From positions 496,001 to 560,000 of the forward strand of contig QNQO01000680.1 of NCBI GenBank assembly GCA_003290165.1: a stretch of 64,000 nt of DNA. Reading direction: 5' to 3'. The DNA comes from Berberis thunbergii. Taxonomy: Eukaryota > Streptophyta > Magnoliopsida > Ranunculales > Berberidaceae. Positions 35,428 through 56,394 of the stretch are shown here, one piece after another. The notes under the pieces are model-generated. The model had not been told where the DNA came from, ran no database searches, and worked only from the letters and a program-made list of their open reading frames with translations. Numbering within the stretch: position 1 is the first letter of the stretch; each line of letters opens with the position of its first letter. The translations under genes and the position numbers were made by a program.

Positions 35428-36062
35428 ACCAGCTAGTTGGAAGAGTTATGGCGGTTGGAACCACAGGTTCAAACCCTGTCGCAGTGTTCTAAAAAGCGCT
35501 AGGCAATGGGTGGGCGGCGAGCAGGTGCCTAGCGCCCAGGGGCCTAGGCGGTCTTAGGTTTTGTATTATAACTTTAATAATTTACAAAAGTTAAACATAA
35601 TACCTTATCAATTACATTTAATTTAATGCCAAGATACATATACAAAATTTAAAACATGAAAAATTAACAATCATGAACAAAATTTATTAAAACTCAAATG
35701 ACTGAAGTTGGTCATGATGGATACTTTATATAAAATTGAATTTTTGGAAAAATATCCAAACCTATTCTTTTATTTTTCTTCAAATTGCATGATTAACCTC
35801 AGTCATGTTTGATAAAATCTATATTAGTAAAATTGGTACTGGCAGATCCTTTGATAATTCTATTAAGTAATCATCATTTGCTACAATTAAACATATACTG
35901 AATAAAAAAAACAATAAAATGTTTATTTCTAAAAAAAGAGGAAAGAAAAATAAAATAAGAACACAATCAACCTTATTAAAATAAAATAAAATAAATTGCC
36001 CAGAACTCGCCCGGCTAGGCGACTGCCTAGGCCGATTTTTAGAACACTGCCCTGTCCGAGAC
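35428..36062 (+). repeat. tRNA-like SINE relic split by a MITE
   Basis: 'agctagttggaagagtt' resembles a pol III A box and 'aggttcaaaccctgtc' a T arm/B box, about 35 bp apart. The sequence resumes at 36050 as 'ccctgtccgagac'. It has no good anticodon arm or acceptor stem, so I call it a SINE or tRNA relic and not a functional tRNA. The MITE at 35482-36049 inserted at the 3' side of the T arm. Confidence 0.5.
35482..36049 (+). mobile_element. hAT-like MITE, CTAGGCGG family, copy 1 (complete)
   Basis: A 568 bp element with inverted ends: left 'cagtgttctaaaaagcgc', right reversed 'cagtgttctaaaaatcgg'. It is flanked by 8 bp 'ccctgtcg' and 'ccctgtcc' (7 of 8 match). Both subterminal regions carry 'gcctaggcg'-type repeats; the interior is AT-rich and non-coding. 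CAGTG-type ends and 8 bp duplications fit hAT. Two further copies are at 40866-41490 and 43861-44353. Confidence 0.85.
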
Positions 36063-40865: not shown

Positions 40866-41490
40866 CAGTGTTCTAAAAATCGGTCTAGGCGGCCGCCTAG
40901 GCGCTAGAAGGTGGAAAATCGCCCAGATTAATGCCTGGGCAGGCAGTCTGGGCGGTCTGGGCAGTCTGGGCGGTCTGGGCGGGCTAGGCGGACTCTAGGC
41001 GGGGTCTGGCGGTCTGGGAGATTTTTTTATTTTTTTTTATTTTTTTATTTTTATTTTTTAATAAGGTTGATTGTGTTCTTATTTTATTTTTCTTTCCTAT
41101 TTTTTAGAAATAAACTATTTAATTGTTTTTTTAGAAAATCTCGGGAATGAGCTTTGATGATGATGATGATGATATGTCTAAATGTAGCGAAAGATAATTA
41201 CTTAATGGAATTCTCAAAGGATCTGCCGGTACCAATTTTACTAATTTAGATTTTATCAAACATAACTGAAGTTATTTATGCAATTTGAAGAAAAATAAAA
41301 GATTATACAAATTCAAATTTATATAAAGTACCCATCATGACCAACTTCAGTCATTTGAGTTTTAATAAATTTTGTTCACGATTGTTAATTTTTCATGTTT
41401 TTAAATTTTGCATATGTATATTGACATTAAATTGGATGTAATTGATAAGGTATTATGCATAACTTTTGTAAATTATTAAAGTTATAATAC
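40866..41490 (-). mobile_element. hAT-like MITE, CTAGGCGG family, copy 2 (one end lost)
   Basis: Starts with 'cagtgttctaaaaatcgg' and the GC-rich subterminal array 'gcgggctaggcgg', here with several 'cagtctgggcggtctgggcg' variants. The AT-rich body matches copy 1 in reverse. The other terminus (about 75 bp including the inverted end) is missing and 25 bp tandem repeats take its place. It disrupts the antisense gene. Confidence 0.8.
41133..41171 (+). mobile_element. ~39 bp RTE LINE stub inside MITE copy 2
   Basis: 'gaaaatctcgggaatgagctt' followed by 'tgatgatgatgatgatgat' matches the LINE 3' end at about 18318-18353. MITE copies 1 and 3 lack it. The insertion replaced about eight MITE bases and shows no clear target duplication. 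Confidence 0.65.
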
Positions 41491-41565
41491 AAGGAGAACA
41501 ATTCAACACACAGACAAGGAGAACAATTCAACACACAGACAAGGAGAACAATTCAACACACAGAT
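41491..41565. repeat. 25 bp tandem repeat, 3 copies
   Basis: 'aaggagaacaattcaacaca' plus 'cagac' repeats at 41491, 41516 and 41541, almost perfectly. It abuts the broken end of MITE copy 2. Confidence 0.9.
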
Positions 41566-42223: not shown

Positions 42224-42909
42224 TGATGATACATAAAAAGGGTCACACCTCTGAGCCGTACACGTGTCATGATAATCTCAAGGAATACATGCCCCAACAT
42301 CAGCCCAACACTTAACAAGCCCAAGCGGTTCTAAGCTCGATCAATTCAGTCCGTCAGGCAAACCAAGACTCTCACAGCACGTTAGGCCGACGTCTCACAA
42401 CTATCCTCAATACCCGTGAGCCCTTCATAGGCAAGTATCTCGAGGACCTTCTTCAGACGACCAACTACAAACTACTTTTTGCTCCCAACTATGAAGCAAA
42501 CACTAGAATATCTTCCACACAGGGAAATTCCCTTCTACGGAATGCTTTTGGATTGTGAATTATCTCTCGTGTTTCTAGGAGCACAAAGCTAATAGAAAAC
42601 TTTTCTCCTACAACACGACTCCTAATTAGAGAGGGATTTCCACGAAGATCTCCTCCCTAATCTATGCCTACGATGGCCTGGTTAAATCAGAATTCCTTGC
42701 ACTATAAATAAGACATGATGTTGATAAGCTAAGGTACACTACAAATTCCTTGTTACAGCATTGCACCTTTTTCAGAACCCTGTTTCATTTTAGCATCAGA
42801 GTGTCATCGGCCACCACAACGATGGTTCGTGGCTCACGTGTGCTACTTGTGCAGGTTAAAAGGTCAGCAGGAACCAGATCAAAGTAAGAAGCAAAAAACG
42901 ATTGCATCA
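42224..42909 (+). repeat. 3' LTR of the Tat-type element
   Basis: 686 bp with TGATG...GCATCA ends. It is homologous over its length to the solo LTR at 17435-18103. It contains 'gcactataaataagacatga' (TATA-like) about 200 bp before its end. No matching 5' LTR is present in the window. Confidence 0.88.
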
Positions 42910-43560
42910 ATTAATATAAAGGTTAAGGGTCCTTAAACTATGCTTCTTTTCCAAAAGAAAAAACCCTCCAAAGACAGACTTTCTTTCTATTCATGATGGT
43001 AGAAAATAGATACCAGTAACCATGTGTCAACGTTTGGAAAAAATGTGAAATTTGGCTCGGATAATAAAATTATTTTACTATTCTTAGAGATGGAATTTAA
43101 CTCCTTAACTTCGACAGGTGTGAGACGTGTGGATCACCAGCACCCATGGAATAAACTTTCAAGACCAAGAGTGCACTGCTGGGTGCATACTGAGTCGAGA
43201 ATTAGGCCTACTTCACCTGATAATCCCACTAGTCTTAACTTTGATAAATTTCGAGATGGCCATTTGAAGTACAATAAACCAAGCCCAAATGCCCCTTATA
43301 ATATGTCTACGTTCTTGGGCCTCTTGCTCGTCCAATTGTACTCGTTAGACACTGACTTTTTGTTTTGGAAAGCGAGCGAGAGTTATTTAAGATCCCCAAA
43401 TCTAAATAAAATAAATTGGATTACAATATATTATAGACCTTCCCTGTGCTATCCTCATATACAATGTACACGAGGAAATACATAAACAAACTCTCACAAG
43501 AGAGAGTATTTAGTATTCACCAACACAAGCCTAAACTATAGACAAAATTATCCTTTGTAC
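42910..43560. other. Unassigned sequence; 153-codon open frame not called
   Basis: The open frame at 43024-43485 has no recognisable domain or splice context. The end, 'ggaaatacataaacaaactc', is AT-rich. A decayed LTR is possible. Confidence 0.3.
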
Positions 43561-43599
43561 TGTTTGTTTGCTTTCAAAGGACTATAGGATCTTCGGAGG

Positions 43600-44640
43600 C
43601 AGAGGCTAAAGTCTTTGGTGTATGCATTAGAAAACTTCTTTGCTGCCGATTATATAATCACATCATCACGAAAGAGGTCTGGCTCATGCTCTTCTTCAGA
43701 AGCTTGACAATTTCCTTGTCTCCTTACTGTCTGTGCAGTTCTTGACCTCTTCCAATGCATCTTTTACCCACATGCATTCTGCTATCACTGCATCCCTGCC
43801 ACGTTTTGCAATCGCTTCTTGAGTTGTCAAGAGAACTTCATTTTCCTTATCGTATCATAGCAGGTGCCTAGCGCCCAGGGGCCTAGGCGGGTGCCTAGGC
43901 GGGCGCCTAGGCGGCACCTAGGCGGTCTTAGGTTTTGTATTATTACTTTAATAATTTATAAAAGTTAAGCATAATACATTATCAATTACATCCAATTTAA
44001 TGCCAGTATACATATGCAAAATTTAAAAACATGAAAAATTACCAATAGTGAACAAAATTTATTAAAACTCAAATGACTGAAGTTGGTCATGATGGGTACT
44101 TTATATAAATTTGAATGTGTACTCTTTTATTTTTCTTCAAATTGCATAAATAACCTCAGTTATATTTGATAAAATCTACATTAGTAAATTGGTACCGACA
44201 GATCATTCGAGAATTCCATTAAGTAATCATCATTTGCTACATTTAGACATATACTGAATAAAAAATAATTAAATAGTTTATTATTAAAAAGTAGGAAATA
44301 AATAAATAAGAACACAATTAGCCATATTAAAATTTTAAAAAAATTAAAAAAAATTTAAATTCATTAAGGCACTTTCAATCTCAGCAAGAGAGACTTTGTC
44401 TGTCCATGCATTCAATTCTTCTTTGGTGAAATCTTTTACATTGTGTTGGACTAATCTTTAACAGCAGCATTTGGTATGGTCTTTCTTCGCACCTGACCTA
44501 TATTGGCAACTAGCATATTGTTGACTTTCCCGACTACATCTTCCTCAATTGAGTTGGGTGCAATTTCATTTAAATGTTGACTTCCCTATTTTTCTCCCAA
44601 CTCCTTGCAATTCGTTTGTGTTACCCGAGCTTCTCTATCA
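43600..44640 (-). pseudogene. Unrecognised charged-protein pseudogene split by a MITE
   Basis: On the minus strand, about 44355-44440 reads VKDFTKEELNAWTDKVSLAE and IESAL. After the MITE, about 43705-43855 reads ENEVLLTTQEAIAKRGRDAV, IAECMWVKDALEEVKNCTD and ETRKLSSF-stop. The two pieces look continuous (helical, charged, coiled-coil-like), with further decayed frames to 44640. I do not recognise the family. Stops, frameshifts and the MITE insertion make it a pseudogene. Confidence 0.5.
43861..44353 (+). mobile_element. hAT-like MITE, CTAGGCGG family, copy 3 (ends lost)
   Basis: 'caggtgcctagcgcccaggg' followed by repeated 'gcctaggcgggtgcctaggcg' and then the AT-rich body of copy 1 in the same orientation. 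Both 'cagtgttctaaaa' termini are missing. It interrupts the pseudogene of 43600-44640. Confidence 0.75.
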
Positions 44641-45484
44641 TAGTTGTTGCCAGATTTCTTATGTTGATGAATGAAGATAATGAATGAATAAACAGTACTA
44701 TATATATGTATCTTCCTTTACCAAAAGTTGCCCCTAAGCCTGTGGTAAGCTTGCACATAGTATTTGTGTTATGTTAACAAGCATGATCACCTCCACACAT
44801 ACATGTCGACGTTTCTTCTTGCAACATTGTAGTTTTCTCAAGTGCCAGATGTTTCAAGTTCTTCATCAGGACTTTCTAATGATCAAAATGTTACTGTTAC
44901 GGTTAGTCGCGTCTTACTTCCTGCAGAATCAAATTGGATAGCCATGATCTCACCTTCTAGTGCAGAGTAAGCTAAACAAATTGAAATATTATGTGCAAGT
45001 GGTCATGTTTTCTTCCTTTTTTATGTTGAATTGCATGGACAATGTATCAAGTTGCTCATTGAGCACCATACAATATAAACAAACTGGAGATTTTAGTGAC
45101 CTCCCTCTTCTATGTCATTATCCAGTCAAGGTAATCTAACATAAAATTCAAGAGTGAACTAAATTAGTGGTCAATGATGAATGTTCCAATAGTATGATAT
45201 ACGTGTTGTGGTTTCAGGCACAATACATGAGCAAGGATCCAGCATACCTAGGATGTGAAAAGAAGGAATGCAAGAAATACGAGGCAGGTGTTTATGTAGT
45301 ATCGACGTGCTCTGGGTCGTTGACATTTCATGTAGTCAACATTAGAACTGATATTGAGTTTGTGTTCTTTGGTGGTGGAATTGGTGCACCTTGCATTTTG
45401 GAACGGTCCATTGCTCTAAATTTTAGCAATCCGTGTGCACCCTTGTATGGCCATCTCTCCAGTACTGATTCTAGCGGAACTTCA

Positions 45485-46029
45485 GTAAGTTAACTAATTA
45501 TGTTCATATGGAATTTTTTTTTATTAGTCAACAATTGCTCCGACGATGTCTATATCATGTTTCCTTAAGTTCCTACTAAATACAAATTTAGCAAGGACGC
45601 ATTAATATCATACTATGTGATAATTACAACTGATTCTAAAAAAATCACTTGCTCTTAATGGACTATGTCTTATCTTTACTCCTTTAAGACATTCCTAGGT
45701 TTTATCCATGTTGCTTGTAAACATTTTACGTTTTCAAGAGAATTTTTGTTTCTGTCACAGTGTTAAATAAAAAAACATAGTACGACAATGGAATACCATA
45801 TAATATTAGTAATTGTGCCAACCTCATACCTTATCGAAATGAAGTAATGAACCAGAATGGGAGACATCTATATTGGATATCTATATTGGAAAAGCTTAGT
45901 CCCACGGTAGTTTCATTGATTCTGCCTTCATGGCCTCTACTGATTCTGCCTTCTCTTCCTCCTAATACACCTGAAGCCATCGACATTTTAGTTACCCATC
46001 ATGGAGAAGGAACCACCCACCTTAGTTTG
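45485..46029 (+). other. Intron remnant left of the inserted elements
   Basis: The donor 'gtaagt' at 45485 opens the intron. The 61-codon frame at 45847-46032 is not supported. 'atctatattggatatctatattgg' is a small local duplication. Confidence 0.5.
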
Positions 46030-46437
46030 TGATGCAGGAGGGTTCCTGGGGTTCCTAATTTAAGTTTCTAGGGTTCCTAATTTGGGTTTTTAGGGTTCGT
46101 AATTTAGGTTTTTTGGTTCCTAATTTGCTCTTTCAATTTAATTAAGAGTCTTTTTAGTTTTCTTTTAAGATTAAGCTTTATCTTTTCTTTTAGGAATAGA
46201 CTGCTTGTTATTTTAGTATTTGATTCTAATTTTTCTTTTAGGAATAGGAAGTTTTCTTTTAGGATTAGACTTTACTTTTTTTTTAGGAATAGACTGCTTG
46301 TTATTTAGTATTTGGTTCTAATTTTTTTCTTTTAGGAATAGGCTGTTTATTATTCAAGTTATTTGAGCACTATAAATAGAGTTCTTCCTCAATATTGTAA
46401 GAGACCTTTTGATTTGCATAATTTTAATTGACATTAG
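46030..46437 (+). repeat. Left LTR (3' truncated)
   Basis: Shares 'tgatgcaggagggtt', repeated 'agggttcctaatttgg', 'ttttaggaatagactgcttg' and 'cactataaatagagttcttcc' (TATA-like) with the right LTR. It lacks the segment matching 48221-48320. Confidence 0.85.
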
Positions 46438-46976
46438 CAGGATTTCGGTAATCGTGAGATGGAAGATCACGATTCTGATTTCAGTTTCGAAAACTTGTAT
46501 CACTATTGTACTCGACTCTGGGAGCACAGCAATCGAGAGGATCGTCATGGAAACCTCGAATTCATAGTGGATCTACCCGAGTTTTTTGGTACGTTACAGG
46601 CTGAAGGATTCATCGATTAGTTGCATAAAGTAGAACATATTTTTGAGTATAAGGAAGTCCCAGATCATGTCAGGTGAAATTGGTTGCCAAAAAACTCAAA
46701 GGCAAAGCATCTGCGTGGTAGGAGCAGTTGAAGCGAGCACGAGACAGGCAGGGCAAGGCCAAGATCACTGATTGGGAGAAGATGAAGGGTCACTTCCTTT
46801 CTTTCGGCTACACTCAACCCTTATTTCGGGGTCTTCACACATTGATGACTGTTTCTGAAGCATACCAGCATGCGCTTGCTGTGAAAAACAACAGAGCAGG
46901 AGGCTAATAATCAGCAGTGATCAAAGCGGTTGGCCAGTTCACCCTCAAGAATTCCGTCCTGCTCAGCAGCCACCAT
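46438..46976 (+). pseudogene. Degraded gypsy gag
   Basis: Pieces read FIVDLPEFFGTLQAEGFID, a stop, then KVEHIFEYKEVPDH and, in another frame, KLVAKKLKGKASAW and GKAKITDWEKMKGHFLSFGY: the Ty3/gypsy gag (retrotrans_gag) pattern. Several stops and frameshifts, including TAG at 46974-46976 that separates it from the chimeric ORF. Capsid function is lost. Confidence 0.8.
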
Positions 46977-47845
46977 AGGGTAATTCTAACTCAAATATTA
47001 GATGTTTTAGATGTGGTGAACAGGGACATAGAGCGATTGAGTGTAGAAAGCCTGTTAATCAGAAGGGTAACAATCTGCTGATTGAGGAAGACGTGGCAGA
47101 CGAAATTGAAGAGCATGGAGAGCCTGTGTATGACACTGATGAAGAGTTGGATATTGTTAATGCAGATGGTTTGCAGAATGAGGATGTTGGAGTTGTTCTT
47201 GAAGACGGTGAAGTACACGAAGAAACTGATGGGGAAGGAGGTTGGGACCTTGAGGACTTGGAGATGCCCGGAGGTTGGGACCTTGAGGACTTGGAGATGC
47301 ACAACCAGGATCAAAATCCCATAGAAACCAATATAGAGCTCCCAATTCTCGAAGCAAGATCTATAGAAGAAGCTTTGAGGCAAGTGGGGACAGATTTTAA
47401 GTATTATTATGCTCATACATGGTTCAGACAGATGAATAAATTCATTCCTTATGTCAATATGGATGGGCACGTGAATGCCCTTTACTCCACCCCATCGATA
47501 TATACTGATGCAAAGCATGCAGTAAATGAGACATGGTCATTTCACACTGATGACTTCTTCCCATATGCAGCCCGTACAAATGCGTACTGGCCAGGTTATT
47601 TCACCAATAGGCTAGCCATCAAGCGATATGTTAGGATGATGAGTGGTTACTATTTGGCAGTAGACATGAATCCAGATTTTCCAGCGGATGTGCAATTGCT
47701 AGCAGAGTTTTCTGACCTGATACTAGAGGATCTTCATCATGGGCTGTCGCCAGAGGATTCCGATGAAGTTGTTATGAACTCGAGGACGATTTCTTTCCAA
47801 CCCGGGGCGACTGATGCAGGAGGGTTTCTAGGGTTCCTAATTTGA
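46977..47845 (+). CDS. Chimeric ORF: zinc knuckle + alpha-COP-like + GH38 alpha-mannosidase-like
   Basis: Open from the TAG at 46974 to a stop inside the right LTR. In order: a CCHC zinc knuckle CFRCGEQGHRAIEC (about 47006-47047) with the usual gypsy tail GNNLLIEEDV; about 47138-47269 an acidic stretch EELDIVNADGLQNEDV... GGWDLEDLEMP, as in plant coatomer alpha subunit; a 33 bp in-frame duplication (47237-47269/47270-47302); 47384-47662 GTDFKYYYAHTWFRQMNKFI, YSTPSIYTDAKHAVNE, YWPGYFTNRLAIKRYVRMMS, as in plant GH38 alpha-mannosidases; then FPADVQLLAEFSDLILEDL, the linker before gypsy RT; then the pol C-terminus SRTISFQPGATDAGG. There is no ATG near the start. The GH38 piece lacks the catalytic Asp region, so enzyme activity is not expected. 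The frame has stayed open for about 290 codons. Confidence 0.75.
47237..47302 (+). repeat. 33 bp in-frame tandem duplication
   Basis: Two copies of 'ggaggttgggaccttgagga' plus 'cttggagatgc(c/a)c', encoding GGWDLEDLEMP and GGWDLEDLEMH. It lies at the end of the alpha-COP-like segment and differs by one or two bases. Confidence 0.95.
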
Positions 47846-48320
47846 ATTTCTAGGGTTTTTAATTTGGGTTTCTAGAGTTCCTAATTTAGGTTTTTTGGGT
47901 TCGTAATTTGCTCTTTCAATTTAATTAGGAGTCTTTTTAGCTTCCTTTTAGGATTAAGTTTTACTTTTCTTTTAGGAATAGACTGCTTGTTGTTTTAGTA
48001 ATTGATTCTAATTTTTCTTTTAGGAATAGGCAGTTTCCTTTTAGGATTAGACTTTACTTTTTCTTTTAGGAATAGACTGCTTGTTATTTTAGTATTTGAT
48101 TCTATTTTTTTTTTTTAAGAATAGACTACTTATTATTCAAGTTATTTGAACACTATAAATAGAGTTCTTCCTCAATATTGTAAGAGACCTTTTGATTTGC
48201 ATAATTTTAATTGACATTAGAGATAATTCTCTGTGTTTTTGGCGATTCTTTTGTATTCTTCCTTGTGAATTATCTATTAGAACTAGCATACAAGATAATC
48301 GCTATTTCTGCCCGACGTCA
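47812..48320 (+). repeat. Right LTR (complete)
   Basis: 509 bp, TGATGCAGG...CGACGTCA. Includes the 3' part lost from the left LTR ('gcgattcttttgtattcttcc', 'cgctatttctgcccgacgtc'). 'cacccggggcgac'-like purine/G-rich DNA precedes it. Confidence 0.8.
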
Positions 48321-48394
48321 ATTTGTCATTTCTCTAGCCATAAAATATACTGGGCCTCAAGCTCCTTCCTCTTTGCTGCGCAGCAACTCCTGTC

Positions 48395-49800
48395 TTCTAA
48401 CTGGCCTGGGTCGAGCGCTTGGGAGACTACCTCGACCCTCCTGGGCACGTGCGCCTGGGAGGGTCGAGGGCACATGCGGCTCATTTGGAGGCAAAATCAG
48501 CAAGTCTTAATATTTTCATTTTCACTTTTGGTTTTTGGCTCCAAACAAGAAACCAGAGCTCTCCTCCTCCTCACTGCCCAGATTTCCATCGCACAACAGA
48601 AACTCCCTCCCCACCCTCTGCTCATCGTCGAATCCACTGAATCAAGAAAAAAGAAGAAGCTCCCCATCGCACATTCCCTCGAAGAAGAAGTCCCCATTCG
48701 AAAAGCTTCAATCCATCTCTCAACACTACAAAGGTAAGTCCCTCTTTGATTTATTGTTGATTTCTTCTTGTGGGTTTCTAGATCTAGGGTTTCTACTGAT
48801 TTTTCGTGTTGATTTCAAAGGGTGGGGTTCTAGATCTAGATCTAGGGTTCCTGGTTTTTACTCCTTTGAGAAACAAAAACTGTTTTGAAATGCACCAAAA
48901 ATTTTTACTCCTTTGATTTTTCTACTCATCTTGATGTCGAAATAGAAAAAGAAAATATTTCGAAATTGGAAGGATGGGTTTGGGTTTTGAGTTCATTCAT
49001 CACTCCCACTGAAAACCTAGTGACAATGGGGTCTTCTTCTTTGCACTGATAATGTGGGTCTGGGTATTCTTTGATTAGTTGAAAGGTTGCAACTTTACTA
49101 AAAATAGGTGTGGATTCGAACTCATTTTATATATCTGTTGAATGGGGTTCAGGGTTTGGTGCATTTTGTGGGTTGAATTTGTTGAATTTGTATCTTAAAG
49201 ATTCCAACTTTATTATAAACAGTCATAGGTTCAAGTCCATGTTGTAGTTTTTTTGTAATTGTTGAATGGGTTCTCGTTTTGATGCCTTTTGTTGCTTGAA
49301 TTTTCTAAATTTATAGATGAGCTCATAATTTGTGTATATGAGTTGTAATCAAGTATGTGTTCAGTGAGGTTGATTTTAATAGCATCGGTTATTCTACCAT
49401 TCTTTTAATAGCATTCAATTTGTAGGTGGAAGTAGCCTTGTTAATGGGGTAATCAAATGGAGTATCCCATGTGAAAATCATTTACCAAGGCACTAGAATA
49501 TGCTTCTCTTTACCATCCCCAAGGTACATGAATATAAATTGTTGTTAAACTTCAGATTCTACTAAAAGGCACCATTTGAGATTGTTGTCGCTCCAAGAGT
49601 AAGGTGACATCTAGATTTTTTTTTTATAATTTTTTTTATTTTTTTTACGTACTATATATATGTGGATCAATGGCTCTATTGGTTTTTTGATGCATGCATG
49701 TCAAATTTGACATGAAGAAGAAATTCTTAATGTCATTTGTTGATTTCATGTATTGTTTTTATGGCTAAGGCACCACAACAGAAGATCTGGGTTTCGCCAC
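48395..49800 (+). repeat. MULE left TIR with leader exon and intron donor
   Basis: About 1.4 kb. From the outer end: GC-rich 'ctcgaccctcctgggcacgt', a C/T-rich leader, and at 48734 a strong donor in 'ctacaaaggtaagtcc', implying a 5' UTR exon in the TIR and a leader intron running to the transposase start. It ends at 'gatctgggtttcgccac'. Confidence 0.85.
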
Positions 49801-50598
49801 ATTTATCTTGAAATCATAGCTGGAACAGACATTGCATATGAGAGTGTTTAAAGTTTAGTGAAATGTCATAAGACTTGAGAAACTATTGGTTTTTGTGTCC
49901 TAACATCAAAGTCTTGATTTATTGGAAGTATTATGTTAGAACACAAATTTAATTATTGCTTGTGATAGAAATTTAAAAATTCATTAGTGCTAAGTGCACA
50001 TGATGTAGTGGTAGCGGTCAGTGGAATGGTGGGATGACCATAATTTAAAAAAATGCATCCTTTATCGAATTTTTTATCGTATGTAGGAGAGGTTTAACTG
50101 CTGTTTGTGACCTTAAGAAGCCTGAATTGGTTCTCATAGTTCCCAAATCGGCTTTGACTACAACAGAGAGTCTCACATCCAAGGATCATAAGCTCGCTTG
50201 TTGCGTTAGAAGACAAACACATCTCTCGTCTATTCAAGTAAATTGAAATTTTCTCTAAATTTTTTAATGGGGGTTTGTCAGTTATGCTAATTAATGTTTG
50301 AACCAAAGTTTGCTAATTAATTTTGTTAATGACCTCCCTTTTTTAGATCTCATTTGATTTCCATGTGAATTGTTAATGCGGTCGGTTTGTTTCTAAACGA
50401 TACATTGTCATTAGCTTGTATTGTATAGTACTTCTATTGTAGTCTATTTGGCAGGAACTACATGTATAACAACTCTGGTGGATCCTTAGTTGCAACATAG
50501 TTCCCCAAAATAGACTATGGAAGGTAAATATTACTAGGGCTATTAGTTGTGCATTTATGTTTTAACAATTGTTGTAAGTTATAACACATATTTCAGGA
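49801..50598 (+). other. MULE leader intron and possible extra 5' UTR exon
   Basis: A candidate internal leader exon, about 50455-50524, is framed by 'tttggcag' and 'gaaggtaaat'. Otherwise AT-rich and non-coding. Confidence 0.45.
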
Positions 50599-53139
50599 AT
50601 GGATAGTGTAGAAGATAATGAATTGATGGAAAATGAAGAAAATTTAGAAGAGATAATGGATCCTACAGAAGGGATGCAGTTCAGCAGCATTAATCAGTAC
50701 CAACGATATTATCATGATTATGGTAATAAAATAGGATTTCCAGTGAAAATAACGAATACGGAAAAAGATGAAAATGAAAAATCTATATTCATTACGCTTG
50801 CATATGGTCGGTCTAGGCAGCATAAAAGTCAATCAAAAAATGTTGTAAAAAAATGGGGTACAGCTAAATGTGGATGTTTGGCTAAAATTAGAGGTAAAAT
50901 ACGCTCTGATGGAACTGTGTCAGTGACAAGAGTAACACTCGATCACAATCATGAATTGAGCCCTGGAAAATCAAGATTTTATCCGAAAAATAGAATTATG
51001 AGCTCGTAGGTGAAGAAGAAGCTGGATTATAATGATAGGGTGGGTATTAGGCTAAATAAGAGTTTTTCTTCATGTGTGGTTGAAGCTGGTGGTCATGATA
51101 TTTTGCCTTTTTCTCAGAAAGATTGTTACAATTATCTGGATAGAATGAGGAGGTTGAGGCTTGGGGAGGGGGATGCGGAGGCCATTCATAACTACTTCCA
51201 AAAAATGCAAGCTAACAATGCTGGTTTCTTTTATATGTTGGATTTGGACAATAAAGGTAGATTGAGAAATGTCTTTTGGGCTGATGCATGGAGCATAGCA
51301 GCTTACAAGGAGTTTGGAAATGTTGTTACCTTTGACACTACATACTTAACAAATAAGTATGAGATGCCATTTGCTCCTTTTGTTGGGGTGAACCATCACG
51401 GTCAGTCAATTCTTTTGGGATGTGGATTGATATGTGGTGAGACCATCGAAGACTTTGTTTGGCTTTTCCAAACTTGGCTTGTGTGTATGAATGGCAATGC
51501 TTCGACGGCTATAATCACTGATCAAGATAGGGCAATGAAGAGGGCTGTTGAAATTGTATTTCCCAACACACGAGACAGATGGTGCTTGTGGCATATTATG
51601 AAGAAGTTGCCTGAAAAGTTGTCCGGTTGCAATCAATATGTGGCAATAAAGTTTGCAATGCAAAGAGCAGTTTTCGATTCCTTGTCTCATGAAGAGTTTG
51701 AAGTAAATTGGCATGGTTTCATTGAGAAATATTGTCTGCAAGAAAATGATTGGTTGAAAGGATTATATCTTGAAAGAATGCGTTGGGTGCCAACATATCA
51801 AATATCTACTTTTTGGGCGGGGATGTCTTCAACTCAAAGGAGTGAAAGCATGAATGTTTTTTTGATGGTTATGTAAATTCGAAAACCACTTTGAAGCAAT
51901 TCGTTGAACAATATGAGAATGCACTACGAAGTAAGGTTCAAAAGGAAACTGAAGAGGACTTTAAATCGTGTAACCGACAGATCCCTTGCATTACTCTTTA
52001 TGCAATAGGGATAATTTTTCAAACTGCCTATAGTACAAAAAAATTTAAGGAGTTCCAAGAAGATATAGCAGGGAATATATGTTGTACAATTCGTAGTGAA
52101 GTTATAGATGAGAGTGTCTTTGAGGTATACACTGTTAGACAAGACTTGGTGATAAGAGATAGACGACGTTCAGTCAATTATATAGTATATTTTAACGTTG
52201 TCGACTTCAATATCAAGTATAATTGCCAATTGTTTGAGTTCAAGGGGATCTTATGCAGACATGTATTGAAAGCGACATTCATGCTGTACCAGATAAATAT
52301 GTTCTTCGGAGGTGGAGCAAAGATGTGAAGAGGGCTCATACGAAGGTTAAGATTGTTTATTCAGATTGGGGAATGAAGCCTGAAAATCAAAGGTTTGACA
52401 AGATGTGCAGTCACTTCTATGAAATGGCCGACTACGCCGCTGAGGATGAAAATAAGACATGCCAAGTTCATGAATGGATCACTTTGAAAATGGAGCAACT
52501 CAAAACTGATGATGGTGATGATGGTGTTGATTCACATGGGTTTTTGGAAATTGGCTCCAATACTACTAGTTTTGGGATGCAATCCTACATTCATAGTCCA
52601 TTACCGGTTCGTAGCAAAGGCCGACGCTCTAATTCAAAGATGCAATCCACAGTTGAAAAAATATATAACAGAAAAAAAAAAACAAATAAAGATCAGACCC
52701 TTGAGAAGAATGTGGTATGTTTTGCAATATGTGTTTTAGGAATATTTAATTTTTTAAGTCTAGAATATAAAATTTTATGTACACGTCATTTGTAGGGTTG
52801 TTCCCAGATTGGAATTGAAGGGTCAGAATATTTGACACCTCATTCATTAAATCCAAATACACAGGTTTGTTTTTAATATATTTACTGACGCGTACTATCA
52901 CTTATGATTGTTCACTTATGATTTGTAGTTGTCAACTTGAAGGATGAAACAATGGGGTCACAATCTGGTATTCCAATCTCAGGAATGGATCAATATTTTT
53001 CGTTGATGCCACAGGTATATAAACCAAGGGGTCGCACTATTTCTTAGTACTGTTGTTATTTTTGCAGTGCAATTATTTATAGTTTATTTATTTATTTTTG
53101 CAGCCACCACCTTCAAACAATGACTATAGGTGGTTGTGA
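50599..53139 (+). pseudogene. FAR1-related MULE transposase (degraded)
   Basis: The acceptor 'ttcag' then GAATGG gives an ATG at 50599. The N-terminus is a FAR1-type zinc-binding domain (GMQFSSINQYQRYYHDYGNK, WGTAKCGCLAKIRGK, TRVTLDHNHELSPGKSR). After an in-frame TAG (51007-51009) comes the MULE transposase core: FWADAWSIAAYKEFGNVVTF, DTTYLTNKYEMPFAPFVGVN, IITDQDRAMKRAV, RWCLWHIMKKLPEKL, STQRSESMN. A frameshift at about 51865 (T7 run) leads to the SWIM region CQLFEFKGILCRHVLKA, with the first SWIM Cys not evident. A second shift near 52280 leads to VPDKYVLRRWSKDVK. Small 3' exons are likely at about 52797-52862, 52941-53012 and 53101-53139 (PPPSNNDYRWL-stop). The family cuts and pastes DNA in the nucleus. 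At least three lesions make this copy inactive. Confidence 0.88.
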
Positions 53140-54322
53140 ATTGAAAATGTTGCAGATTAGTGGCAGTCATTGTAAGTTTATTAGTGGCAGTCAACTTAAA
53201 TATATACTTAAACCTGACATAAACATTCCCTAAAGGGCTAGTTTCATCATTCTATAAACAATCAGAAAGAACTAAGAGGTTGTGTCAGGACTCATTTTTT
53301 TGCTTCTTCTATGATATATATAGGGGGTCAAACTTCTTGAACACTGAGCATCTGGAATAGTTTCATCATTGACATACCTCAATTCTGAGATTCATTTCAT
53401 TCCAATAATTCTCTGGTTTTGAAAAACAGAACTTTTACTGATTTGCCTTGTTTATTTTTGTTTGAAGGATATCCAACTGAAAATTCTGCATCACTGATGC
53501 TGCTTCTGAGTTGCTGAAAATGCTGTTGGATATGTCATAAATGGAACCCAAGGATGGATCTGTGAAGATGCTGCAGCACTGATGCTTGTTTGCTGAAAAT
53601 GTTGTTGGATCTGTGATGATGTCTTCTTGCAAAGTCGGTATAGACATATTTGAGTCTATTTATGTGTTTATGGTTTGTTGAATGATGGAATTTAGGTATG
53701 TCTGACTTTGTTGATGTTACAATGGATAAATGAAACTTTAGTCATTATATATGTGTTTATAGTTTCAGATTGAGAAATCTGGGATGTAGCATTTCGTGAA
53801 GTTGAGAAATCAGGTTGAGAAATCAGATTGCAACTATAATCTGGGATGTAGCATTTCATGAAGTTGGAAATCAGGCTGTTATTGTGCTCTATTAGTTGCA
53901 AAAAACAAGTGTGAACTGTACTGCTCTACAGGATGGAAGCACCTAACATAATGGAAGCATTACAATTCAGATAAATAGTGTCCAATTTTATCTGAAGGAA
54001 TGGATGATAAATAGTGTACAATTCAATATGCCTCTGATAAGATCAACTGGCAGAATGGAAGCATTACAATTCGGTAAATACTTCAGAGTGTCCCCCTATT
54101 ATTTTCTGCAAAAAATGAGATGCAACTAGTATGATCTGGTGGCATAAACAAGCAAGACAACAAACCACACAAAACAAGCGCATTCTGGTAAGACCCTTTC
54201 ATTCACACGTAATTTCATCAAACACCTTTTCATTCAAAACCAAATAACACAAAACAAAATGAACAAAGAAAAGCTGAGTTCCATCATAACTTTATGTACA
54301 TATTACATCACACATCTTTACA
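53140..54322. other. Intergenic region between convergent MULE genes
   Basis: 3' UTR-like AT-rich DNA with internal near-repeats: 'gttgagaaatcaggttgagaaatcag' and 'ctgggatgtagcatttcgtgaagttg' (53780 and 53844), 'gatgctgcagcactgatgctt'-like copies (53500-53590). No coding sequence recognised. Confidence 0.5.
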
Positions 54323-54688
54323 TCATTCGATCAAGAACTTAAGAATTAATAGTACAATTAAAATAATAATTACTATTATCAAAGTGTTGATTAAGTCCCT
54401 CATCAAAGCCCAAGGATCATTGTTCCCTTGGGTGTCATTTCTTTGATCATTGACTTGAGCGGCTTGATCGTTAACTTTGACATCTTCGTTGTTGTTTAAT
54501 TCTTTCCGGTTTTCTCTCGCCACTTCTGAGCAAACCCCCATCTCGTATGATCTTTCAGCTTCGGCAACTGACATAAACCCCTTATAAACAACACCGCGGT
54601 ACCCTGATACCGCAGATAAACATGTTGGCCAATCCAGATATACTCTGGGTCTACGACCACGATAAACGACATATGCTCTGAATGCCAT
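54323..54688 (-). CDS. MULE second gene: RNase H1 N-terminal-like (hybrid-binding) protein with C-terminal TM
   Basis: 121 residues from the ATG at 54688, which follows an acceptor 'aaatgcag' then GAATGG. Residues 1-45, MAFRAYVVYRGRRPRVYLDW then CLSAVSGYRGVVYKGFMSVA EA, match the RNase H1 N-terminal/Cauli_VI fold: YVV..GR..GVY..W..C...V.G...A.YKGF.S..EA. This domain binds RNA:DNA hybrids or dsRNA in eukaryotic RNase H1. A hydrophilic Asn/Gln/Asp linker follows, then a 20-residue Ile/Leu/Val-rich helix (LINTLIIVIIILIVLLILKF) likely to be a membrane anchor. There is no RNase H catalytic domain. It is intact, unlike the transposase, and transcribed toward it from the right TIR. The position is that of mudrB in MuDR, but the protein is unrelated by eye. 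Its role is unknown. Confidence 0.75.
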   Translation of the reverse strand: MAFRAYVVYRGRRPRVYLDWPTCLSAVSGYRGVVYKGFMSVAEAERSYEMGVCSEVARENRKELNNNEDVKVNDQAAQVNDQRNDTQGNNDPWALMRDLINTLIIVIIILIVLLILKFLIE

Positions 54689-54884
54689 TCCTGCATTTAA
54701 AAAAAATTCATAAGAATAATCATCACACAAAATTCATTCTCACAGCTTTGCTTCAAATTCACCCAAAACCATCCAAAATTCATAAAAAAAAAAAAACTAT
54801 AGAAAACAAAAACTTAATGCAATATGCAAAATGTGTCATCCAAAAGCAAAATCCCAAATGTTCAAAAAACAAAAAACAGTATAA

Positions 54885-55110
54885 GTGGCGAAACCCAGAT
54901 CTTCTGTTGTGGTGCCTTGGCCATAAAAACAATACATGAAATCAACAGATGACATTAAGAATTTCTTCTTCATGTCAAATTTGATATGCATGCATAAAAA
55001 AACCAATAGAGCCATTGATCCACATATATATAGTACGTAAAAAAATAAAAATAAAATAAAAATAAAATAAAATAAAAATAAAATAAAAATAAAAATAAAA
55101 TAAAAATAAA

Positions 55111-55141
<31 letters not shown>

Positions 55142-56394
55142 TTAAAATTAAAAATAAAAAATAAAAAATAAAAAAAATCTAGATGTCACCTTACTCTTTG
55201 AGCGACAACAATCTCAAATGGTGCCTAGTAGAATCTGGAGTTTAACAACAATTTATATTCATGTACCTTGGGGATGGTAAAGAGAAACATATTCTAGTGC
55301 CTTGCTAAATGATTTTCACATGGGAAATTCCATTTGATTACCCCATTAACAAGGCTACTTCCACCTACAAATTGAATGCTATTACAAGAATGGTAGAATA
55401 ACCTATGCTATTAAAATCAACCTCACTGAACACATACTTGATTACAACTCATATACCCAAATTACGAGCTCATCTATAAATTTAGAAAATTCAAGCAACA
55501 AAAGGCATCAAAACGAGAACCCATTCAACAATTACAAAAAAAATACAACATGGACTTGAACCTATGACTGTTTATAATAAAGTTGGAATCTTTAAGATAC
55601 AAATTCAGCAAATTCAACCCACAAAATGCACCAAACCCTGAACCCCATTCAACAGATATATAAAATGAGTTCAAATCCACACCTATGTTTAGTAAAGTTG
55701 CAACCTTTCAACTAATCAAAGAATACCCAGACCCACATTATCAGTGCAAAGAAGAATACCCCGTTGTCACTGGGTTTTCAATGGGAGTGATGAGTGAACT
55801 CAAAACCCAAACCCATCCCTTCCAATTTCAAAATCTTTTCGTTTTCTATTTTGACATCTAGATGAGTAGAAAAATCAAAGAAGTAAAAAATTTTGGTGCA
55901 TTTCAAAACAGTTTTTGTTTGTCAAAGGAGTAAAAATCAGGAACCCTAGATCTAGATCTAGAACCCCACCCTTTGAAATCAACACGAAAAATCAGTAGAA
56001 ACCCTAGATCTAGAAACCCGCAAGAAGAAATCAACAATAAATCAAAGAGGGACTTACCTTTGTAGTGTTGAGAGATGGATTGAAGCTTTTCGAATGGGGA
56101 CTATTCTTCGAGGGAATGTGCGATGGGTGGCTTCTTCTCTTTTCTTGATTCGGTGGAGTCGACGATGGGGAGAGGGTGGGGAGGGAGTTTCTGTTGTGCG
56201 ATGGAGATCTGAGCAGTGAGGAGAAGGAGAGCTTTGGTTTCTTGTTTGGAGCCAAAAACCAAAAGTAAAATGAAAATATTAAGATTTGTTGATTTTGCCT
56301 CCAAATGAGCCGCACGTGCCCTCGACCCTCCCAGGCGCACGTGCCCAGGAGGGTCGAGGTAGTCTCCCAGGCGCTCGACCCAGGCCAGCTAGAA
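54885..56394 (-). repeat. MULE right TIR
   Basis: About 1.5 kb, the inverse of the left TIR, including the leader exon and donor (reverse complement of 'gacttacctttgtagtg' at 56051-56067). It is longer than the left TIR mainly because of an A-rich microsatellite at 55037-55182. Confidence 0.85.
55037..55182. repeat. (AAAATAAAAAT)n microsatellite in the right TIR
   Basis: About 145 bp of alternating A4-5/T units. The left TIR has only a short T-rich equivalent at 49619-49648, so expansion happened after the TIRs last shared sequence. Confidence 0.9.

Follow-up and report, generated by a model that had tools for sequence, protein, structure and literature searches.

Pieces of two unrelated host genes, COPA and a GH38 alpha-mannosidase, share one open frame inside an LTR element (46030..48321, forward strand) of Berberis thunbergii and, judging from the joints and derived bases that the element has in common with its relatives, the two pieces most likely met through recombination between gene-bearing elements. 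The element lies in the window, the 64,000-nucleotide stretch of contig QNQO01000680.1 that was analysed, and would represent a decayed member of a gypsy-type, non-autonomous family.

Structure of the element and its open frame

The outline of the element is set by an LTR pair and a flanking 5-bp repeat, with the 5' LTR and primer-binding site truncated. On the forward strand, a 5' LTR that lacks some 100 bp at its end (46030..46437, from blastn against the 3' LTR) is followed by a degenerate gag, whose translations show stops and changes of frame (46438..46978), the open frame with its cargo, and the 3' LTR (47812..~48321, from LTR pairing), and the two LTR copies are identical in 379 of 410 aligned columns (blastn). 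The window copy is missing both the 5' LTR end and the primer site, and the same 5' LTR truncation occurs in L009-L015 and L018. Paired LTRs with a TG start and a CA end are complete in L026 and other loci, and a tRNA primer-site motif, TGGTATCAGA, absent from the window copy, follows the 5' LTR in five of the seven loci scanned. With boundaries set by eye, and with L020 and L025 outside the comparison owing to their truncated 5' LTRs, the 5-bp target-site repeats are exact in L027 (cttta/cttta) and have one mismatch in L026 (taaag/taagg), L024 (tatac/catac) and the window (gtttg/atttg, 4/5 identical). Among the relatives, a gag domain was detected in L039 (Retrotrans_gag, 5.4e-10) and a protease domain in L065 (Asp_protease_2, 3.5e-7); no reverse transcriptase (RT) was seen in any locus read, and no autonomous relative that would supply one was found among these loci. 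The element is classed, by the similarity of its gag, protease and linker to the gypsy gag-protease protein P0026, as a non-autonomous gypsy-type LTR retrotransposon, and the presence of an LTR pair with no RT in the loci read agrees with the non-autonomous element of the original prediction.

The open frame spans 288 codons from stop to stop (46979..47845), close to the roughly 290 codons predicted, and, by eye, residue 95 is its first Met. It begins with the gag zinc knuckle (CCHC at residues 8-24; Pfam zf-CCHC, 6.8e-5) and a gag-protease linker similar to P0026 (46979..47140). The next 128 nt (47141..47268) are 93% identical over their length to the COPA genes L029-L032 of this genome, in keeping with the COPA origin proposed for this acidic block; by Pfam alone the piece falls below significance (COPI_C, 0.29). 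A 33-nt tandem duplication (GGWDLEDLEM.; 47237..47302), in which 47270-47302 is the second copy of 47237-47269, was identified from the sequence, and the duplicate is missing from 11 of the 21 aligned copies (-33 in L018-L028). Segment X (84 nt, 47303..47386) matches neither COPA nor GH38 and is the terminal part of a longer cargo in L042; a protein search with this segment gave seven candidates, none of them scored, and its source may be a plant protein of great length in which LEARSLEDI-type repeats occur. The GH38 piece (47387..47660) is in spliced form, with the intron places absent, and residues 131-229 match jack-bean alpha-mannosidase (PDB 6b9o) at 2.7e-37, which supports the GH38 origin proposed for the second block. 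The frame then passes into a pre-RT linker and pol tail (47661..47811), assigned from the similarity of the stretch after GH38 to the pre-RT linker of P0026 (by eye) and from the recurrence of the tail motif in the genome.

Between gypsy LTRs, the knuckle, COPA, GH38 and pol tail thus share one frame by Pfam, PDB and blastn evidence, and the linker that normally precedes gypsy RT is recognisable, both as had been claimed; the earlier list of segments holds for COPA and GH38 but had overlooked segment X and the tandem duplication. No complete domain is present in the cargo, which retains some 91 codons of GH38 and 43 of COPA. Upstream, gag (46438-46978) is spread over three frames and interrupted by stops, and the window frame is therefore not one continuous gag fusion.

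A complete-looking FAR1-type MULE (48395-56394) lies about 70 bp from the LTR element, with terminal inverted repeats of ~1.4 kb (48395-49805 and 54880-56394); its FAR1, MULE and SWIM domains are encoded by ORFs at 50578-52328. As a carrier of the gene pieces (a Pack-MULE) it was rejected, its inverted repeats being outside the LTR element. To the left of the LTR element, an ORF at 45158-45490 has a purple acid phosphatase Fn3-like domain (Pfam, 1.6e-12), and a pair of imperfect inverted repeats ~2.4 kb apart (41040-41492 and 43935-44351), partly related to 35561-35995, is possibly another transposon.

Copies in the genome and duplication of the window group

The window's own assembly (2.24 Gb) was searched with an 869-nt query, and the open frame was scored at 40 loci with 87-100% identity, a lower bound drawn from 3953 candidates. 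Thirty-six of these 40, the window included, match nearly the whole query, confirming the sister copies with the same junctions that the original prediction proposed to look for, and the recurrence of the same joints in many loci excludes a chance juxtaposition. An assembly artefact or misjoined reads might be suspected from L009, L010, L015 and L017, each of which has 6-9 single-base indels like those of poor contigs, but identical joints in dozens of loci with differing flanks leave this reading a negligible probability, and an assembly chimera is refuted by the 40 scored loci and the 182 GH38-tail joints described below.

Twenty of the scored loci (L009-L028) were fetched with their flanks. 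The flanks and the truncated 5' LTR are common to the window, L009-L015 and L018, and the downstream side is also common to L016 and L017. LTR divergence within a copy (K2P 0.087-0.092 for the window, L012, L014 and L018; 0.084 for L011, where the left boundary is misplaced) exceeds that between copies (0.010-0.040), which, with the shared flanks, indicates that the window group multiplied as DNA after one insertion and rules out ordinary retrotransposition of the window subfamily. Separate insertions are represented by L020, L024, L025, L026 and L027, with LTR divergences of 0.042-0.082, haplotype twins included, and L016/L017, L020/L021, L022/L023 and L027/L028 are likely haplotype pairs. 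In most window-group loci a larger multi-copy block, corresponding to 42448-52272, is repeated along with the element at 94-99% identity, and two smaller window-type derivatives (L037 and L038) have most of gag deleted with the cargo retained.

The RNA template of the cargo

The proposal that the pieces derive from spliced templates stands for GH38, while the COPA piece carries no information on it. In P0023, P0031 and P0032 (predicted proteins from plant-like contigs) a GH38 exon is followed by a read-through intron and then by DGRVNALYS, and in P0023, P0027, P0029, P0030 and P0031 another read-through GH38 intron occurs after DDFFP (both by eye). The elements are continuous across both places, and the absence of both introns points to a spliced RNA template for GH38. 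The COPA donor region falls in one open exon of 472-1000 codons (best nine of 93 matches), and a donor region within one long exon makes donor introns uninformative. The COPA genes occur as tandem pairs 16-18 kb apart on contigs C3499, C1818, C8180 and C511, and such pairs on four contigs suggest a polyploid or haplotype-resolved assembly.

The state of the GH38 introns bears on the alternative that the gene pieces were inserted as DNA, whether through ectopic recombination, as nested insertions or by way of the neighbouring MULE as their captor. A complete FAR1-type MULE does sit beside the element and the window subfamily did multiply as DNA, but GH38 is without introns where plant genes have them, the inverted repeats of the MULE enclose a region outside the LTR element, and the pieces are in frame with no visible insertion repeats at the joints read, such that insertion as DNA is considered very improbable.

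Sister families and their scale

Searching the genome with plant COPA returned 93 matches, ten long and gene-like and about 80 others, many with stops. All four of the non-gene matches that were fetched (L033-L036) are LTR elements of the window's type, and their gag-COPA joint falls, like that of the window family, at position 1777 or 1778 of the gene. They carry about 717 nt of COPA, and three of the four read to the tail (L035 is short), with L033 open for 393 codons. Among the 104 proteins retrieved from the protein database with the L033 frame at E 1e-5, none pairs COPI_C with a listed gag or protease domain.

The corresponding search with plant GH38 gave 102 matches, of which L039 has the order gag-NOP14-GH38-tail (Pfam Nop14, 4.2e-39; GH38, 2.8e-46), and nineteen further loci were read (L040-L058). 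The NOP14-GH38 architecture is repeated in L044, L049, L050, L053 and L054, and L042 holds NOP14, a long form of X and then GH38. In L046, L051, L052 and L057, 46 nt of COPA and a 626-nt cargo precede GH38, the 626-nt part being identical in L046 and L051. Cargo Y precedes GH38 in L040, L041, L043, L055 and L056, cargo Z does so in L047, a partial protease does so in L048, and L045 and L058 again have the window-type architecture. Selection was partly for open frames both in L040-L045, where they were long, and in L033-L036, which had no stops listed, and L046-L058 were chosen by other criteria. No family beyond GH38 was detected by Pfam in the cargos of L042, L046, L047 and L040 or by NCBIfam in those of L042, L046, L040 and L065, and against PDB two pieces of L046 gave nothing relevant and L064 gave nothing at E 0.01. 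The 626-nt cargo of L046 may be midasin-like.

Genome-wide, a 35-nt tail motif occurs 1,790 times with three or fewer mismatches (877 + 913; reversed control, 0) and the GH38-tail joint 182 times (79 + 103; control, 0). In a small sample of the tail (eight exact-motif loci out of the first 11 matches listed), six loci carry cargo and two (L059 and L066) are gag-protease-tail elements without cargo. The cargo-bearing loci include L060, with a HECT ligase piece (1.3e-10 to TRIP12), a sacsin-like piece (3e-7, just under the Pfam cut-off) and the COPA end; L061, with importin beta-3/importin-5 (1.6e-17) and the COPA end; L063, with OGDH (1.5e-41) and the COPA end; L064, with eIF3c (4.8e-16); L062, of the window type; and L065, in which the cargo lies ahead of the protease. 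Across L033-L066 the same LTR, gag and tail enclose differing cargo, in at least eight architectures with common outer joints, several of which hold two to four donors, and a single LTR element can carry pieces of two unrelated host genes, as COPA with GH38 or as NOP14 with GH38.

Joints, cargo exchange and order of capture

The COPA left joint is common to the COPA-only, window-type and COPA-626-nt-GH38 elements, and the GH38 right joint is common to all GH38 elements read that retain it. In L042, X forms the last part of a far longer cargo and already precedes GH38. Two joints were read by eye for identity between the joined partners: at COPA/X, where COPA reads GACTTGGAGcTGCC and L042 reads AACTTGGAGaTGCCCAACC, the identity is ACTTGGAG (8 nt), and at COPA/tail it is AGCTAGCAG (9 nt). 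Column 125 has a derived base (a) in all 11 window-type copies compared, in none of three COPA-only elements and in none of four genes, and the same base is found in L042, on the X side; taken with the arrangement in L042, this places the COPA/X joint within the shared ACTTGGAG and makes the window family the product of a COPA element and an X-GH38 element. At column 87, a derived base (A to C) is present in 3/3 COPA-only and 11/11 window-type copies and in 0/4 genes, indicating one COPA capture behind both groups. The direction of the COPA/X exchange is suggested by a single L042-like locus. For a different pair of donors, protease sequence continues up to NKGSE before GH38 in L048 and leaves a footprint between NOP14 and GH38 in the NOP14 elements (by eye against P0026), from which it follows that GH38 was captured before NOP14.

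According to the original prediction, one element took a COPA mRNA and then a GH38 mRNA directly, in two steps, and the adjacency of the two pieces in one frame would fit such a history. Successive captures by the window element itself are made less likely, however, by the occurrence of COPA and GH38 in separate sister families, each as a longer capture with the same outer joints, as well as by the pre-existing X-GH38 unit of L042 and by column 125, and the two-step route is unlikely. Recombination between elements that already bore genes most likely accounts for the window arrangement instead.

Reading frame and selection

Frame was counted at the joints in 40 loci, with L051 and L055 left out. 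The gag-COPA joint is in frame in all members of three families (3/3, 24/24 and 3/3), as are COPA-tail (3/3), gag-NOP14 (6/6), X-GH38 (24/24) and GH38-tail (5/5, 24/24, 3/3 and 4/4), both joints of the 626-nt cargo, with COPA and with GH38 (3/3 each), and both joints of Y, with gag and with GH38 (4/4 each). COPA-X, a count that covers 16 of the 24 window-type loci, is in frame in 14, and the two that are off (L009 and L017) are both rich in single-base indels. For NOP14-GH38 the count depends on the reference, with 0/6 in frame against L039, which has an internal frameshift, and 5/6 against L044 (L053 off). The joints of L060, L061, L063 and L064 likewise appear in frame (by eye). Members of a family are related and each joint is therefore counted once, which gives eight of eight independent frame conditions open (gag-COPA, COPA-tail, gag-NOP14, NOP14-GH38, GH38-tail, and X, the 626-nt cargo and Y, for which the condition is zero net shift across the piece), an outcome that random joining would produce with a probability of (1/3)^8, or about 1.5e-4.

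For 11 of the 21 copies, treated as independent, dN/dS comes to 0.73 for the gag end, 0.61 for COPA, 0.96 for X, 1.09 for GH38 and 0.86 for the whole. Strong purifying selection on the cargo is unsupported at these near-neutral values, and those for COPA and gag leave room for weak constraint. Each of the 20 aligned copies besides the window has at least one stop or frameshift in the frame, and some of the single-base indels in these copies may be assembly errors. A host-recruited gene retained for its protein could be proposed from the 288 open codons of the window copy and from the lower dN/dS of its COPA part, but the interruption of all 20 other copies, the values for GH38 and for the whole, the broken upstream gag and the loss of most of the GH38 domain make such recruitment highly improbable. 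With founders that had an open frame and a cargo that is little constrained, a filter on frame fits better than a useful cargo protein, and such a filter would be the cause of the open-frame pattern.

Discussion

The history that we regard as probable is that of a non-autonomous platform whose cargo was gained and swapped by template switching and whose surviving families were filtered for an open frame. The constant arms of the platform would be the LTR, primer site and gag on the left and a short pre-RT/pol-tail remnant with the LTR on the right, the protease-to-integrase region between them having been deleted and largely replaced with pieces of host mRNA. Host mRNAs may have been co-packaged with element RNA, and the reverse transcriptase of an autonomous relative could have moved from one template to another where the two share a short identity; at a later stage cargo could have been exchanged between two cargo-bearing RNAs of the same particle. 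The families that multiplied would be those in which a capture left the gag-to-tail frame open, a pattern observed at the joints and for which the filter is the putative cause, and the window copy would have arisen as a single insertion that was subsequently duplicated together with its flanks. A plausible, if tentative, extension is that a gypsy lineage lacking most of pol acts as a standing exon-shuffling machine in which a translation-linked filter lets only in-frame fusions multiply, the candidate filters being the decay of early-stop RNAs or the need for a continuous Gag-cargo-tail protein.

Pack-MULEs and gene-carrying Helitrons are DNA transposons that copy genomic DNA. Like them, the Berberis elements have many copies with fragments of several genes, but here the ends are LTRs and the cargo is spliced. 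A closer parallel is Bs1 of maize, one LTR retroelement in which fragments of proton ATPase, xylan endohydrolase and beta-1,3-glucanase genes, several unrelated host genes, are joined in a hybrid frame (PMC13317346). Bs1 is a single element, whereas here a whole lineage has at least eight architectures, common outer joints, cargo exchange and a GH38-tail joint found 182 times; Bs1 is reported in that review to be transcribed and translated. The same source gives Veju and BARE-2 as template-switch chimeras of LTR elements, which likewise are new element types formed by switching between co-packaged RNAs, although the partners described there are mostly elements or DNA of uncertain origin rather than host-gene-carrying elements and host mRNA.

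Host fragments in LTR elements, mostly decaying, are also the subject of surveys in rice and sorghum, where single-gene captures were catalogued (PMC3726574), and in maize, where no element combining several nuclear genes was reported among 425 LTR elements with gene fragments under the survey conditions (PMC2774510). The claim that dual capture by an LTR element is rare agrees with that one maize survey, but not with this genome, in which multi-gene elements are common and several architectures have two to four donors. A literature search, largely outside subscription journals, found no description of LTR elements that swap cargo as a lineage. Maize Bs1 is a precedent; what looks new is the scale, the passage of cargo from one element to another and the pattern of open frames.

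LTR gene capture is known mostly from single pieces or single elements, and the window element and its relatives document gene shuffling in nature with unusual clarity, their shared joints retaining in what order pieces were captured, where templates were switched and how cargo passed from element to element. Such a lineage makes it possible to count the jumps of reverse transcriptase onto cellular mRNA, to measure the identity that a jump requires and to tell whether frame is selected. If the frame filter is real, plants would own a permanent source of chimeric coding sequences joined in frame and, if the exon-shuffling reading holds, the genome would keep receiving such sequences whether or not the cargo protein is useful.
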